In this document: piece by piece, positions 53,184 to 60,129 of the stretch
Position numbering within the stretch: position 1 is the stretch's first letter
Layout: every line of letters starts with the position of its first letter
NCBI GenBank assembly: GCA_028702695.1
Contig: JAQVOH010000001.1
Span: 1 to 64,000, forward strand
From: Desulfotomaculaceae bacterium
GTDB lineage: Bacteria > Bacillota > Desulfotomaculia > Desulfotomaculales > Pelotomaculaceae
Direction: 5' to 3'
Length of the DNA: 64,000 nucleotides
The notes under the pieces: model-generated
Told to the model about the DNA's origin: nothing
The model's input: only the letters and a program-made list of their open reading frames with translations
Databases searched by the model: none
Position numbers and translations under genes: made by a program

Positions 53184-53270
53184 AAAAAGCCTAACTACAG
53201 GCGTGTCAAAACACCGTGACTGTAGTATAGGCTTCATTGCCAAACTTTATATGGATACAACACTGTACCC
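53184..53270 (-). promoter_or_regulatory. ANTAR-type antiterminator/terminator leader of gltB
   Basis: RNA P1 gggtac-AGUGUU-gtatcc (53253-53270); P2 ggc-AAUGAA-gcc (53230-53241); terminator aagcctatactacag...ctgtagttaggcttttttc (53184-53234) shares the P2 3' arm. Confidence 0.78.
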
Positions 53271-53316
53271 GAATATTAAATTACCACTTCCTGGGAACGT
53301 ATCGGTGCAATGAAGT

Positions 53317-54648
53317 TTAAAACTTAGGCAGGTATTCTTCCAACTCCCAGGGGTGAACCTGGCTCCGGTAGCGATCCCATTCAATCCGCTTGGCTTCCAG
53401 GTACCGATTAAACACGTGTTCTCCTAGTGCTTCACGGATAACTGTATCCTTTTCCAGCTCCTGCATGGCCTCATAAAGGCTCCCAGGCAGGTTTCCTATA
53501 CCTATTTGGGCTCTCTCGCGCGAGGTCATTTCATAAATATTCCGGTTACAGGGAGCAGGTGGTGTAATCTTATTCTTTATGCCGTCCAAACCCGCTTTAA
53601 GGCTTACCGCTAGAGCCAGATAAGGGTTGCAGGCAGGGTCGGGGCTGCGCAGTTCAACACGTGTGGACAAACCCCGCTTGGCGGGAATCCGGATCAGCGG
53701 ACTCCGGTTTTGCGCGGACCAGGCAACATATACGGGGGCCTCATAGCCTGATACAAGGCGTTTATAAGAATTAACGCTCTGGTTGGCAATAGCCGTAATG
53801 GCGCTGGCATGTTTGAGCAGACCGCCAACATAGTAGAGACAGTCCTCACTCAAACCATCCTTCGCTGATGGATCATAAAAGGCATTTTCCCCATTTCTTG
53901 TCAGAGATTGGTTCATATGCATCCCGGAACCGGCAATGCCAAAAACCGGTTTGGGCATGAAGCTGGCGTGCAGGCCATGCCGCTGGGCTGTGGTTCGTAC
54001 TATATATTTAAAGGTTACAATCTTGTCTGCCGTACTTAAAGCATCCGAGTATTTAAAATCAATTTCGTGCTGACCTGGAGCCACCTCGTGATGCGATGCC
54101 TCTATTTCAAAGCCCATATCCTCCATAATTAAAACCATATCACGCCGGGCATTCTCCCCGAGATCTATTGGAGCAAGATCGAAATAGCCCGCCTTGTCCT
54201 GGGTAACGGTAGTGGGCCTACCATCATTATCCAGGTGGAAAAGAAAAAACTCCAGTTCGGGCCCCACATTCATGCTATAACCCATTTCTTCAGCTTCCTT
54301 AATCGCCCTGCGTAAAACATTGCGCGGGTCGCCTGAAAAGGGTGTGCCATCCGAATTGTAAATATCGCAAATCAGTCTGCCGACTGAGCTGTCCCTGGGC
54401 CGCCAGGGAAAAGTAGCAAATGTTGCTGGATCCGGTCTCAGGTACATATCAGATTCTTCGATCCGGACAAAACCCTCTATAGAGGAACCGTCAAACATCA
54501 ACTCTCCAGCCAAGGCCTTATCCAGTTGTTCCACTGTAATTGCAACATTTTTCAAAACTCCAAAAATGTCTGTAAACTGCAGGCGCACAAACTTGACTCC
54601 CTGTTCCTTGGCAAGTTTACGTACGTCTTCGTTAGTAAGCGCAGCCAC
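53317..54648 (-). CDS. glnA: Type I glutamine synthetase (copy 1)
   Basis: 443 aa; [72 protein letters not shown]. Confidence 0.97.
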
Positions 54649-54714
54649 CCATTACCAGCACCTTTCTTAAACGATGTCCGCCATGGGCGGTAAGTAAAAA
54701 AGACCAGACTAGAG

Positions 54715-54777
54715 GTATATAAATGTATACCCGCTCACCGGCCTCATTGCCCTTGGCTGAGGTACAACGCTGTACCT
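54715..54777 (-). promoter_or_regulatory. ANTAR-type antiterminator leader of glnA copy 1
   Basis: RNA P1 aggtac-AGCGUU-gtacct (54760-54777); P2 ggc-AAUGAG-gcc (54740-54751); followed by imperfect hairpin ggccggtgagcgggtata...tataCCTCtagtctggtc and tttttt. Confidence 0.75.
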
Positions 54778-54858
54778 GCCTCTTGAATTTTTTAATTATC
54801 ATTTAGTATATCATAAAATTCAAAAATAACCATCACTATCTGAAGTTTTTTCTTGCTA

Positions 54859-54894
54859 AAAAGTCCTCTGCCCACGTCGGGCAGAGGACTTTTT
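54859..54894. terminator. Intrinsic terminator downstream of glnA copy 2
   Basis: aaaagtcctctgcccacgtcgggcagaggacttttt. Confidence 0.9.
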
Positions 54895-54898
54895 AAAT

Positions 54899-56230
54899 TT
54901 AGAACTTTGTCAGGTATTCATCGACTTCCCAAGCATGAATCTGGATGCGATAATGATCCCACTCAAGTGTTTTGGCTTCAACAAACTTTTCGAAAACATA
55001 GTCGCCTAAGGCGCTCTTGAGCACGTCGTCCTTGGCCAGTTCCTGCATGGCTTCCGCCAGGCTGCCCGGAAGGCTGTCAATATTCAGTTCTTTGCGCTCT
55101 GCCGCGGTCATATGATAAATATTCTTATCGGTCGGCGGCGGCGGCTGAATTTTGTTCTTAATACCGTCAAGGCCAGCTTTTAAAGCAGCAGCAATAGCCA
55201 GGTACGGGTTGCAAGCCGGATCAGGGTTCCTAAGTTCTACCCTCGTCGAACTGCCCCGCTTGGCCGGGATACGGATCAGCGGGCTTCTGTTGCGACCGGA
55301 CCAGGCAATGTAAACCGGAGCTTCATAACCTGGCACCAGACGTTTATAGGAGTTAACCGTAGGATTGGTTAAAGCCGCCATTGAACGGGCGTGTTTCATC
55401 AGACCGCCAATATAGTATTTTGCCGTTTCGCTTAACTGATCAGGGGTTGAGGGATCGTAGAAGACATTTTTCCCATCCTTAAACAGCGACTGATTCATAT
55501 GCATGCCGGAACCGTTAATCCCGAAAATAGGTTTAGGCATAAAGGTAGCGTGCAATCCATGGCGCTGGGCAGTAGTCCGTACAACCATTTTAAAAGTCAT
55601 GATCTTGTCAGCAACATCCAGAGCTTCAGCATACTTGAAGTCAATCTCGTGTTGGCCGGGCGCCACCTCATGGTGGGATGCCTCGATTTCAAAGCCCATT
55701 TCTTCCAGGGTCAGCACCATAGCACGGCGGGCGTTTTCACCCATGTCAACCGGGGCAAGATCAAAATAACCGGCGCTGTCATGGGTTTCCAGGGTTGGCC
55801 TGCCGTCTTTATCCATGTTAAATAAAAAGAATTCCATTTCCGGACCAACTTGCATAGTGTAACCCATTTCCGCTGCCTCGGCCAATACCTTTTTCAAGGA
55901 ATAGCGGGGATCTCCTTCAAATGGCGACCCGTCAGGATTGTACACATCACAGATTAACCGGGCTACGCCGCCCTCCCGTGGCCGCCAGGGAAATACCGCG
56001 AAACTCTTAATATCGGGACGCAGGTACATATCCGATTCTTCAATTCTGGCAAAACCATCAATGGAGGAACCGTCAAACATCAATTCATTATCAAGCGCCT
56101 TATCTAACTGTTCAACAGTAATGGCAACATTTTTCATAACTCCGAAAATATCGGTAAACTGGAGACGGATAAACTTAACCCCAAGATTTCTGGCCTTTTC
56201 AATAAGCTGTGTTTTTTCAGAAGTTCCCAT
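54899..56230 (-). CDS. glnA: Type I glutamine synthetase (copy 2)
   Basis: 443 aa; same motifs and length as copy 1. Confidence 0.97.
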
Positions 56231-56359
56231 GATAAACCACCTTTCAAAAAATATTATCAGATACCAACCGCTAACAATTTATGCTCAGACGTTTTGTACT
56301 TTGGCAGATTATACCCTAAATACCTGATGCTCCAAATTCACCCCTCCCCAGGATACAAG

Positions 56360-56438
56360 AAAACCCTTAAAAGCGGCGTTAAAAATGCAATGCCAGCTTT
56401 TAAGGGCGCCTTTGCCCGTATGGTACTACAGTGTACCA
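56360..56438 (-). promoter_or_regulatory. ANTAR-type antiterminator/terminator leader of glnA copy 2
   Basis: RNA P1 tggtac-ACUGUA-gtacca (56421-56438); P2 gggc-AAAGGC-gccc (56404-56417); terminator cccttaaaagc...gcttttaagggtttt (56360-56406). Confidence 0.78.
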
Positions 56439-56518
56439 CTTTCATGCTTTTCAATTTAAACAACCTGCATGCTCGCAGCTTAATTTTGATATGGCATGCT
56501 CTTATTGTTGGCTCCGGT

Positions 56519-57127
56519 TTATAAGTTATGAGCGAGTATAATCGCTTCAGCCACAGCCCTCATAGAAAGGCGCTTATTCATACTCTGTTTCTGGATACGT
56601 TTAAAAGCGTCAGTTTCAGTGATTCCCATGGTCTCCATTAAAATACCTTTAGCTCTTTCAATTACCTTCCTTGTTTCCAGGGTTTCTTTCAAATTGTTAA
56701 CTTCATTTTCCAGTCTGATGATTTCCTGATAATTGGTTAAGGCCAGTTCAACCGCTGGAATGAGGTTGTATTCAAGCTCCGGTTTCATAAGAAAGGCAAA
56801 TACTTTTGCAGTTTTCGCTTTTTCGATTAAATTTTGCTTGGTGGAAGAAGCTATCAAAATCACTGGAGCCAGTTTATCTTCGTGAATGATTTGGGCAACT
56901 TCATGCCCGTCCAAGCCAGGTAAAAAAGCTTCGATAATCACCAGGTCGGGTTGTCTGGACCTAACCATTTTCAAACCGGATTGGCCATCCTCGGCCTCTC
57001 CGATAACCCAATAACCCATTTTGGCCAGAATACCCTTGATGTTATTTCTCCAGGTGGCATCGTTTTCAATTACGATCACTCTCTGTTCACCCACGGTACA
57101 TGCCTCCTGTCTTAAGAACACTGCCAC
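56519..57127 (-). CDS. ANTAR-domain response regulator 1 (AmiR/NasR/EutV type) with atypical receiver
   Basis: 202 aa ORF; receiver VIENDATWRNNIKGILAKMGYWVIGEAEDG, ANTAR LETRKVIERAKGILMETMGITETDAFKRIQKQSMNKRLSMRAVAEAII. Confidence 0.94.
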   Translation of the reverse strand: MAVFLRQEACTVGEQRVIVIENDATWRNNIKGILAKMGYWVIGEAEDGQSGLKMVRSRQPDLVIIEAFLPGLDGHEVAQIIHEDKLAPVILIASSTKQNLIEKAKTAKVFAFLMKPELEYNLIPAVELALTNYQEIIRLENEVNNLKETLETRKVIERAKGILMETMGITETDAFKRIQKQSMNKRLSMRAVAEAIILAHNL

Positions 57128-57189
57128 ACCTGAATCTTTTATAAGACATAATCAGCTCATACTTGCTTAAAATTAAACTATAAAGAGAA

Positions 57190-57264
57190 AAAATGCCCTT
57201 TGCAGGTAAAACAAGACCTGTCAAGGGCATCATTGCCTTAATGGATAGGTACTTCTTCGTACCC
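57190..57264 (-). promoter_or_regulatory. ANTAR-type antiterminator/terminator leader of ANTAR regulator 1
   Basis: RNA P1 gggtac-GAAGAA-gtacct (57247-57264); P2 ggc-AAUGAU-gcc (57226-57237); terminator atgcccttgacaggt...acctgcaaagggcattttt (57190-57230). Confidence 0.72.
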
Positions 57265-57339
57265 AATACTGTTGTATCATTATATCTGATCCTTTACAGG
57301 AGCGCAACCTTGTTTTTTAATTTATCTAGCTTTAAATTA

Positions 57340-58983
57340 TTAGCTATTTAACATTCTTTTGGCAAATTCATCCTGAATTTCCGTGATGAAAGGAATGCCT
57401 GTTTCTTTCTCAGTTTCTCTATTACCAGCTGCCAGATCAAATCTGGATATTTCTGCTATGGAGAACCTACGAGCTCCAGCAAGAAGCTGTTGTAAGCCTG
57501 CTGCCAATTTATCAGCGAGTGTCCAAACAGCGATTGCTCCAAACGGAATATTCTTCATTGCATCAGCACCGACTTTTTTCTGAACATCATAGTAGCCTGC
57601 AAAGATTTCTTCAGCCTTTGTACCAACTGCTGATACAGACTTCGCCAATTCATTCCAGTTGCCATTAACAGCTGCTTTGCGCTCAGGTCTCAGTACTCCT
57701 TCGATATTGGCTCCCAAGAAACCAGGAATCATAGTTGCCCTACCAATACAAATCATTTTCGTGAATGGAGCACCCAGAGCCAACGCCTTAAAGATCTGAT
57801 CTTCTCTGGCAATTCCTCCGCCAAAAGCCAGGTCGACTACTTTTTGACCTTTTTGAGCCAGGATACTTGCATATTCATGAGACTTGGCATGGAGTAGAAG
57901 CGCAGGTACGCCCCAGCTCTCCATCATATTCCACGGGCTCATGCCAGTACCGCCACCGGAACCGTCAATGGTCAAAAGATCCAATTTGGCATCCGTGGCA
58001 AATTTGATTGACATAGCCAGTGCTTCCATACCATAGGAACCGGTCTTCAAAGTAATTCTCTTATAACCTTTGCTCCTTAAATCAGCAATCGCCGTCATGA
58101 ATGAATCTCTGACCTGATCATAATTTGCAAGCTCGGTATAGCCCAAGCGGCTATGACGAGCAAAAGAACGGATGGCGCCAGATTTAAATGCTTGCTGCAC
58201 TTCAGGCAGGGTCGGATCCGGGTCAACGATATAGCCTCTGTTTTTCAAGAAAATAGCGTATTCAAGATCAGTTACCTGGATTTCGCCGCCAATATCTTTA
58301 GCGCCTTGACCCCATTTAAGTTCAATGATCACTTTGTCACCGTATTTTTCGAGGACATAATCAGCAACGCCGTTGCGGGTATCCTCAACGTTCATCTGAA
58401 CAATGATGGCGCCGTAACCATCATGATAACGAAGATAGGTATCAATTCTGCGGTCGAGTTCAGGCGATTTCAGAATCTTACCGTTTTCGATAACCGACTC
58501 TTTGTCAACCCCAACTACGTTTTCGCCGATGACAATTGGATAACCCACGAGAGCTGCACCAACTGCAAAAGCCTCCCAGTACTTTGCGGCAACAAAGGTG
58601 GAGCCCAACGCGCCGGACAAGATGGGGATCCTGGATTTTGTCTTGATTTCATTACCAAACTCTGTTTCAATTTTAACATTGGGGAAGATACAATCATCTG
58701 CTTCGTTGGAAAGACCTTGTGCGAGTCCATAGGCGCCATAGTTATAACCTTGAATACGAAGGGAATTATAGGAAACTCCCATATGAGTGATATTGTCACT
58801 TCCTGCCGTGATAGTTCCGAAATCTCGGGGATAAAGCATTTTACGTCCTTGCATACAGGACATAAAGGTTTCACATTTCCCCTGGCAATCTGCCCGACAT
58901 AATGTACACAACCCTGATTCGGCCGGGTTACCGCGATTCACTGTACCCAAAACATCATTAGCCCTCTGCCAACCAATACTCAT
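57340..58983 (-). CDS. Stand-alone FMN-binding glutamate synthase domain protein (archaeal-type GltS)
   Basis: 547 aa; LSGALGSTFVAAKYWEAFAVGAALVGYPIVIGENV, IDGSGGGTGMSPWNMMESWGVP, Cys-rich N-terminus CTLCRADCQGKCETFMSC. Confidence 0.88.
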   Translation of the reverse strand: MSIGWQRANDVLGTVNRGNPAESGLCTLCRADCQGKCETFMSCMQGRKMLYPRDFGTITAGSDNITHMGVSYNSLRIQGYNYGAYGLAQGLSNEADDCIFPNVKIETEFGNEIKTKSRIPILSGALGSTFVAAKYWEAFAVGAALVGYPIVIGENVVGVDKESVIENGKILKSPELDRRIDTYLRYHDGYGAIIVQMNVEDTRNGVADYVLEKYGDKVIIELKWGQGAKDIGGEIQVTDLEYAIFLKNRGYIVDPDPTLPEVQQAFKSGAIRSFARHSRLGYTELANYDQVRDSFMTAIADLRSKGYKRITLKTGSYGMEALAMSIKFATDAKLDLLTIDGSGGGTGMSPWNMMESWGVPALLLHAKSHEYASILAQKGQKVVDLAFGGGIAREDQIFKALALGAPFTKMICIGRATMIPGFLGANIEGVLRPERKAAVNGNWNELAKSVSAVGTKAEEIFAGYYDVQKKVGADAMKNIPFGAIAVWTLADKLAAGLQQLLAGARRFSIAEISRFDLAAGNRETEKETGIPFITEIQDEFAKRMLNS

Positions 58984-59122: not shown

Positions 59123-59380
59123 TCAGGCCTCTACCTCTCTTATGCCTCCCTTCCAGTTAGTTAATGTGCTTACAAGTATAAGAAAACGATTGAAAATATA
59201 TTCTCCCAGCGGACGCCAGGGTAATATTTCAAAGGTGGTCGGGTCAGGATACAGGTATATATCGGTAAACTGCAGGCGAATAAATTTCACATTGTACTCT
59301 TTGGCTTTTTCCAAAACCTCTTCTTTGCTAAAAATTTCCAGAATACACACCCTCCAAAGAAAAACAAAAAACGCCCCCAA
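59123..59380 (-). pseudogene. Collapsed glutamine synthetase (third glnA copy) with two large internal deletions
   Basis: 85 aa [20 protein letters not shown] (GS N-terminus), then YLYPDPTTFEILPWRP (GS ~residues 69-84), then LGEYIFNRFL (GS C-terminal [10 protein letters not shown]). Confidence 0.85.
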
Positions 59381-59423
59381 AAGACCATGTTAAAAACTGG
59401 TCTTTTAAGGACGTCGTTGCCCT
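59377..59423 (-). promoter_or_regulatory. Residual ANTAR-type leader (P2 + terminator) upstream of glnA remnant/gltS
   Basis: RNA P2 agggc-AACGAC-gtcct (59408-59423); terminator aacgacgtccttaaaagacca...tggtcttttgggggcgtttttt (59377-59418). P1 not clearly recognisable. Confidence 0.65.
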
Positions 59424-59508
59424 CAAAAATCATTATTGTTGCTAGTATAACACAATATATCTGAAAATCAATGCCTGCATTGTATGAATATTGTATACAC
59501 CATTGAAC

Positions 59509-60084
59509 CTATTTCTTTAAAGAAGTAATAATCTGGCGGGCAACCCTTGCTATCGGTACACAGTTATCCATGCTCTTTCTTTGCATATATTTGTAGGCAT
59601 CCCTTTCAGACAGGCTTTTAACTTCCATCAAAAGGCCTTTTGCTCTTTCAACCAGCTTTCTGTCCTCCAATGTTTGCCTGAGCCTTTTATTTTCCTCTTC
59701 CAGCTTAGTAATCTTTTTATAGCTGGCTATGGCGATTTCTATAGCCATAAAAAGTTGCCTTTCATCAACAGGTTTAATCAGGTAGCCAAAAATCCAGGTA
59801 GTCGCTGCTTCTTCCACTAACTCTTGCTCATGAGCCGCGGTTAGCAAAATCACCGGAGCTGCACGGTGCTCCTCAATAATCCGGGCGATTTCCAAACCTT
59901 CCGCGCCAGGCAACCTGGCATCCATGATCACAACATCTGGTTCGGTCTGAAAAATCACTTTAAGGGCGCTTCGCCCGTCTTCAACTACACCTGCAACCGT
60001 ATAGCCGGCATGAGTCAATATTTCCTTTAGTTTCTGACGATTTTCGGCATCGGCATCGGCGATAACTACCCGGGTTCCAAACAT
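59509..60084 (-). CDS. ANTAR-domain response regulator 2
   Basis: Start moved to ATG 60084 (RBS ggaaggtg): MFGTRVVIADADAENRQKLKEIL, PDVVIMDARLPGAEG, ANTAR LEDRKLVERAKGLLMEVKSLSERDAYKYMQRKSMDNCVPIARVARQII. Confidence 0.93.
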   Translation of the reverse strand: MFGTRVVIADADAENRQKLKEILTHAGYTVAGVVEDGRSALKVIFQTEPDVVIMDARLPGAEGLEIARIIEEHRAAPVILLTAAHEQELVEEAATTWIFGYLIKPVDERQLFMAIEIAIASYKKITKLEEENKRLRQTLEDRKLVERAKGLLMEVKSLSERDAYKYMQRKSMDNCVPIARVARQIITSLKK

Positions 60085-60102
60085 ATGGCGCACCTTCCCA
60101 AG

Positions 60103-60129
60103 AAAAATTACCCACACAAAAGGGGTAAT
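60103..60129 (-). terminator. Terminator-like hairpin immediately upstream of ANTAR regulator 2
   Basis: RNA attaccccttttgtgtgggtaattttt, 7-bp stem plus U-tract, ~20 nt before the likely start codon. Confidence 0.45.

Follow-up and report, generated by a model that had tools for sequence, protein, structure and literature searches.

A glutamine synthetase-like gene reduced to a probable pseudogene behind a conserved candidate ANTAR attenuator in a Pelotomaculaceae genome

When a gene has lost most of its length and still reads as one open frame, is it a dying gene or the source of a small retained peptide, and what becomes of the control region in front of it? These questions are raised by an open reading frame at 59123–59380 in the 64,000-nucleotide stretch of DNA analyzed here (the window), from the genome of a Desulfotomaculaceae bacterium. 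It consists of three pieces of a glutamine synthetase (GS) joined in gene order, and an earlier note had described it as a third glnA copy collapsed into an 85-aa miniature: either a dying gene whose leader now serves gltS or a retained GS-derived peptide. Our analysis indicates that it is very probably a pseudogene, left over from a divergent GS-like gene (GS3) that occupies the same place in relatives; as judged by alignment, at least three deletions have removed about 85% of the gene here.

The remnant and the window features given with coordinates below lie on the minus strand. It is located between ANTAR2 (59509–60117), a conserved neighbor of the leader that encodes a response regulator and ANTAR protein and is a candidate antiterminator, and gltS (57340–58983), the next intact gene behind the leader, which encodes a 547-aa protein with a glutamate synthase FMN domain (PF01645) and lies about 140 nt beyond the end of the remnant frame. 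An Rfam scan of the window returned tRNAs only.

Examination of related genomes, the check that the earlier note had proposed, revealed that 13 of 25 family genomes have an intact GS-like gene in this slot, with ANTAR2 and gltS as its neighbors. The 13 comprise the two congeners, G001 (whose copy contains a run of N) and G002, and 11 further genomes of the family. These intact genes encode proteins of about 434–445 aa, which are 70–74% identical between genera and 97% identical between G001 and G002. The gene order ANTAR2–GS3–gltS is common to the relatives, which places the remnant in the orthologous neighborhood. Moreover, GS3 (intact or decayed) and gltS are found in an identical set of 15 of the 25 genomes (Fisher p = 3e-7, a value that ignores phylogeny and in which some of the 10 genomes lacking both are incomplete). 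The protein in the gltS slot (L028, L031, L032, L033, L037, L043 and others) is of two types, 88–94% or about 42–45% identical to that of the window, and both types occur even within one genus (G003 and G013), which suggests replacement.

GS3 is only about 55% identical to glnA1 and glnA2 and departs from them at GS signatures, with GPExE changed to GAQIE or GAEIE, FDGSS changed to FDSS or FDSA, and the E of GYEAP missing. For these reasons the ancestor of the miniature is, on sequence comparison, a divergent GS-like paralog, and the description “third glnA copy” has to be given up. The fold family is nonetheless that of the bacterial type I GlnA proteins (PF03951 and PF00120; e.g., PDB 4lnf), from which the remnant pieces derive; the intact G002 ortholog matches both domains well above cut-off, whereas the remnant, which is down to 54 codons from about 440 and has no catalytic domain, matches PF03951 partially (22.7 bits; cut-off 33.4) and PF00120 not at all. 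A functional glutamine synthetase would require both the beta-grasp domain (PF03951) and the catalytic domain (PF00120) complete, and by its predicted domains the remnant is not one. Just past the end of the window lies a further full-length atypical GS gene with FDSS and GAEVE signatures (64167-65501 of C12, the contig of the window; L008:12167-13501), followed by a glutamate-dehydrogenase-like gene and an ammonium-transporter-like gene.

Alignment to orthologs, at the DNA level to the intact syntenic copy in G002 and to G001, defines the pieces and their junctions. Piece 1 (59258–59341) comprises 28 N-terminal codons counted from the CTG start position, and piece 2 (59210–59257) the 16 codons YLYPDPTTFEILPWRP; DNA identity to G002 is 85% over the leader and N-terminus and 91% over the middle piece. 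Between them 120 nt (40 codons) have been lost in frame at a 6-bp CGATAT microhomology, where two copies of the hexamer would have been joined by replication slippage or an end-joining type of event. Piece 3 (59180–59209), the 10 codons LGEYIFNRFL, follows an in-frame loss of 966 nt (322 codons, counting whole codons between CCC and TTG), the ends of which share no more than about 3 bp. Piece 3 matches GS3 orthologs at the expected position with a best ungapped score of 42, compared with a maximum of 33 and a mean of 22 in 60 shuffles; the match is weak, yet by this measure it exceeds chance. The three-piece structure and the in-frame losses of about 40 and about 320 residues reported in the earlier note are therefore borne out. 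A third loss had escaped it: this deletion took the C-terminus (26 codons) together with the original stop codon, and the final 18 residues, ILVSTLTNWKGGIREVEA, with a TGA (59123–59179) are a non-GS tail read through from the former 3' untranslated region. The sequence around this third breakpoint has diverged from the reference, and its position is approximate.

The best match of the remnant is the GS3 protein of G001 (73% over residues 4–43, E 7e-14); identity to the GS paralogs of its own genome is 47–63%, with E about 1e-5 or weaker. Recombination between the glnA copies of the window was considered as an origin and rejected, since the pieces match GS3 orthologs and not glnA1 or glnA2.

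The translated product would also differ from that first proposed. GS3 orthologs begin, behind a GGAGG-like site, about 8 codons ahead of VLEKA; their start codon is mostly TTG or ATG and in some cases CTG. The window has CTG 59341 at the orthologous position with GGAGG upstream. TTG 59380, from which the 85-aa product was to start, was rejected as a start codon because it sits inside the stem of a terminator (59415–59370). A plausible product is thus one of 72 aa from CTG 59341.

Could such a product of about 72 aa be a retained micropeptide, perhaps a modulator of the intact glutamine synthetases, with its frame kept by selection? Two in-frame deletions have a 1 in 9 chance of arising without selection, which counts against the pseudogene reading, and the usable Shine-Dalgarno sequence GGAGG with a CTG start at the orthologous place and the small number of lineage-specific replacements in the first two pieces would also suit a peptide. 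These few changes, scored against outgroups, fit recent loss as well as ongoing constraint. Replacement and synonymous changes number 11 and 10 in the remnant against 93 and 299 in its neighbors (p = 0.007), a comparison in which the outgroups place several of the replacements on the G001/G002 side. Against a peptide stand its absence from every other genome searched (neither 60 relatives nor a scan of the genome contigs yielded a contiguous miniature), the replacement by L of the invariant F of FPWRP, the sub-threshold Pfam match, and the missing GS C-terminus, with its last 18 residues formerly non-coding. Retention of frame was rejected as a sign of selection, given the 1 in 9 chance and the out-of-frame loss of GS3 in another genome, G006. 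An AlphaFold model of the remnant (pLDDT 46) was likewise set aside as evidence, as an intact GS3 control modeled from the same sequences scored no better (36). Taken together, there is no support for a selected peptide, and this part of the earlier proposal, already weakened by a claimed start within the terminator, is highly improbable. An equally small probability attaches to the idea that the remnant is worthless in itself and that its translation couples ribosomes to RNA polymerase, averting polarity before gltS. An open in-frame remnant with a ribosome-binding site does stand directly behind the terminator and ends shortly before gltS, but the GS3 frame of G006 breaks off early, leaving hundreds of bases untranslated ahead of an intact gltS, so that coupling is not generally needed.

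The miniature might instead be an artifact in which an intact GS3 was collapsed or mis-joined in the contig, as the draft state of the assembly (186 contigs) and the presence of four GS-family genes close together would allow. However, of the words that span a junction, none above 10 bases in length occurs a second time in the 72 kb around the locus, leaving a k-mer assembler with no repeat to jump across. In addition, no orphan GS3 middle or other GS3 piece was found in the whole assembly, where the missing middle is matched only by three intact GS paralogs; both flanks are syntenic with G002, and the tail has diverged from the reference. An assembly collapse would seem, from these features of the contig, very unlikely.

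The pseudogene reading has a parallel in G006, which belongs to another genus. Here GS3 has lost about 443 nt out of frame, with a 6-bp microhomology (AAATAT) at the breakpoints; leader and gltS remain intact in this genome. G021, a close relative of G006, carries an intact GS3, and by the alignments the decay in G006 is independent of that in the window. Both cases resemble microhomology-deletion pseudogenes in the 6-bp repeats at the breakpoints (deletion 1 of the window and the deletion of G006) and in being independent losses of a gene that is altogether missing from many relatives; the frame kept across two deletions is the sole unusual point of the window’s case. The pseudogene is an ordinary one within a nitrogen-assimilation cluster. 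In G006 (L042:12013-12172), fragments of the glnA2 C-terminus lie where relatives have ANTAR1 and glnA2, and several genes have been lost from the cluster. A literature search on glutamine synthetase pseudogenes in Pelotomaculum returned nothing relevant.

In both decayed cases the promoter, the hexaloop/terminator leader and gltS have all been kept, in agreement with the suggestion of a dying gene whose leader serves gltS. A consensus scan identified a sigma-70-type promoter, TTGATT-16-TATACT, at 59444–59471, and the leader alignment shows −35- and −10-like elements at the matching position in most relatives. RNA folding recovered both elements described in the earlier note: an intrinsic terminator (59366–59415; stem 59415–59370 followed by a U tract, z = −4.9) and a P2-type ANTAR hexaloop hairpin, GGGC-AACGAC-GUCC, with A1 and G4 present (59409–59422). 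The companion hairpin, P1, is absent from the window leader, and no consistent P1 was found in relatives, where a few isolated, unconserved hairpin matches occur. The 3' strand of P2 also belongs to the terminator stem, making the two structures mutually exclusive, and these alternatives fold in all 14 leaders tested. The P2 stem is near-invariant among relatives; the loop is AANGRC (AGAGAC in G047) and varies only where the A1/G4 rule allows. Upstream of the promoter, at 59486–59499, lies the motif TGTATACAATATTC, which has one exact match within the window and recurs at the corresponding position in most relatives; it is conserved in the majority of GS3 leaders and could be a repressor operator.

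ANTAR targets carry a hexaloop with A1 and G4, and Ramesh et al. 2012 (PMC3369931) report ANTAR-controlled leaders from Desulfotomaculum reducens, at its glutamate synthase genes. The GS3/gltS leader combines an A1/G4 hexaloop on a short stem with a 3' strand that overlaps an intrinsic terminator, and it adjoins ANTAR and nitrogen-assimilation genes, as in the ANTAR attenuators of eut, nas and ami (PMC3369931). It differs from these in having one hexaloop rather than two. The data have led us to propose a model in which transcripts start at 59444–59471 and by default would terminate at 59415–59370, while an ANTAR protein, in the simplest case the neighboring ANTAR2, would stabilize the P2 hexaloop and allow read-through. 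With GS3 gone, gltS would be the first intact gene behind this switch, and the leader has probably been kept for it on that account. A search for ANTAR-type hairpins between GS3 and gltS in 11 relatives and in the region upstream of gltS in the window found none, which makes the GS3 leader the one candidate recovered here for ANTAR control of gltS. Control of gltS by this leader, judged from position, is favored with some reservation. Since in relatives GS3 and gltS lie side by side and are inherited together, and no ANTAR-type hairpin was found between them, it is probably better to say that the leader still serves gltS than that it now does so.

The leader is P2-only, both in the window and among relatives ranging from Pelotomaculum to Desulfofundulus; the −10 box lies about 20–30 nt before P2 in most cases. 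In the same cluster, the leaders of gltB, glnA1, glnA2 and ANTAR1 contain both a P1 of the GGTAC-hexaloop-GTACC type and a P2; located within 53230–57330 (−), these four make up a candidate ANTAR regulon, and in the ANTAR1 leader a G replaces the A at position 1 of the P1 loop. An ANTAR dimer is described as contacting each hexaloop in turn and thereby preventing termination, and the same work redefined the minimal ANTAR binding motif as one hexaloop and left the role of single hexaloops open (PMC8934654); our literature search on the single-hexaloop question found no paper beyond it. On present comparisons the GS3/gltS leader may be, and we put this forward tentatively at somewhat short of an even chance, a conserved single-hexaloop ANTAR attenuator that lacks the P1 of its siblings, has been retained together with its terminator among Desulfotomaculum relatives and has survived loss of its first gene twice.

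These observations portray GS3 as a dispensable, atypical GS paralog that can be lost without loss of the leader or of gltS. If the proposed nature of the leader is correct, one hexaloop can be enough for ANTAR antitermination, contrary to the published requirement that an ANTAR dimer touch both to prevent termination. Standing beside dual-hexaloop siblings, the conserved single-hexaloop leader offers a natural test of how many hexaloops are needed, the question left open in PMC8934654.
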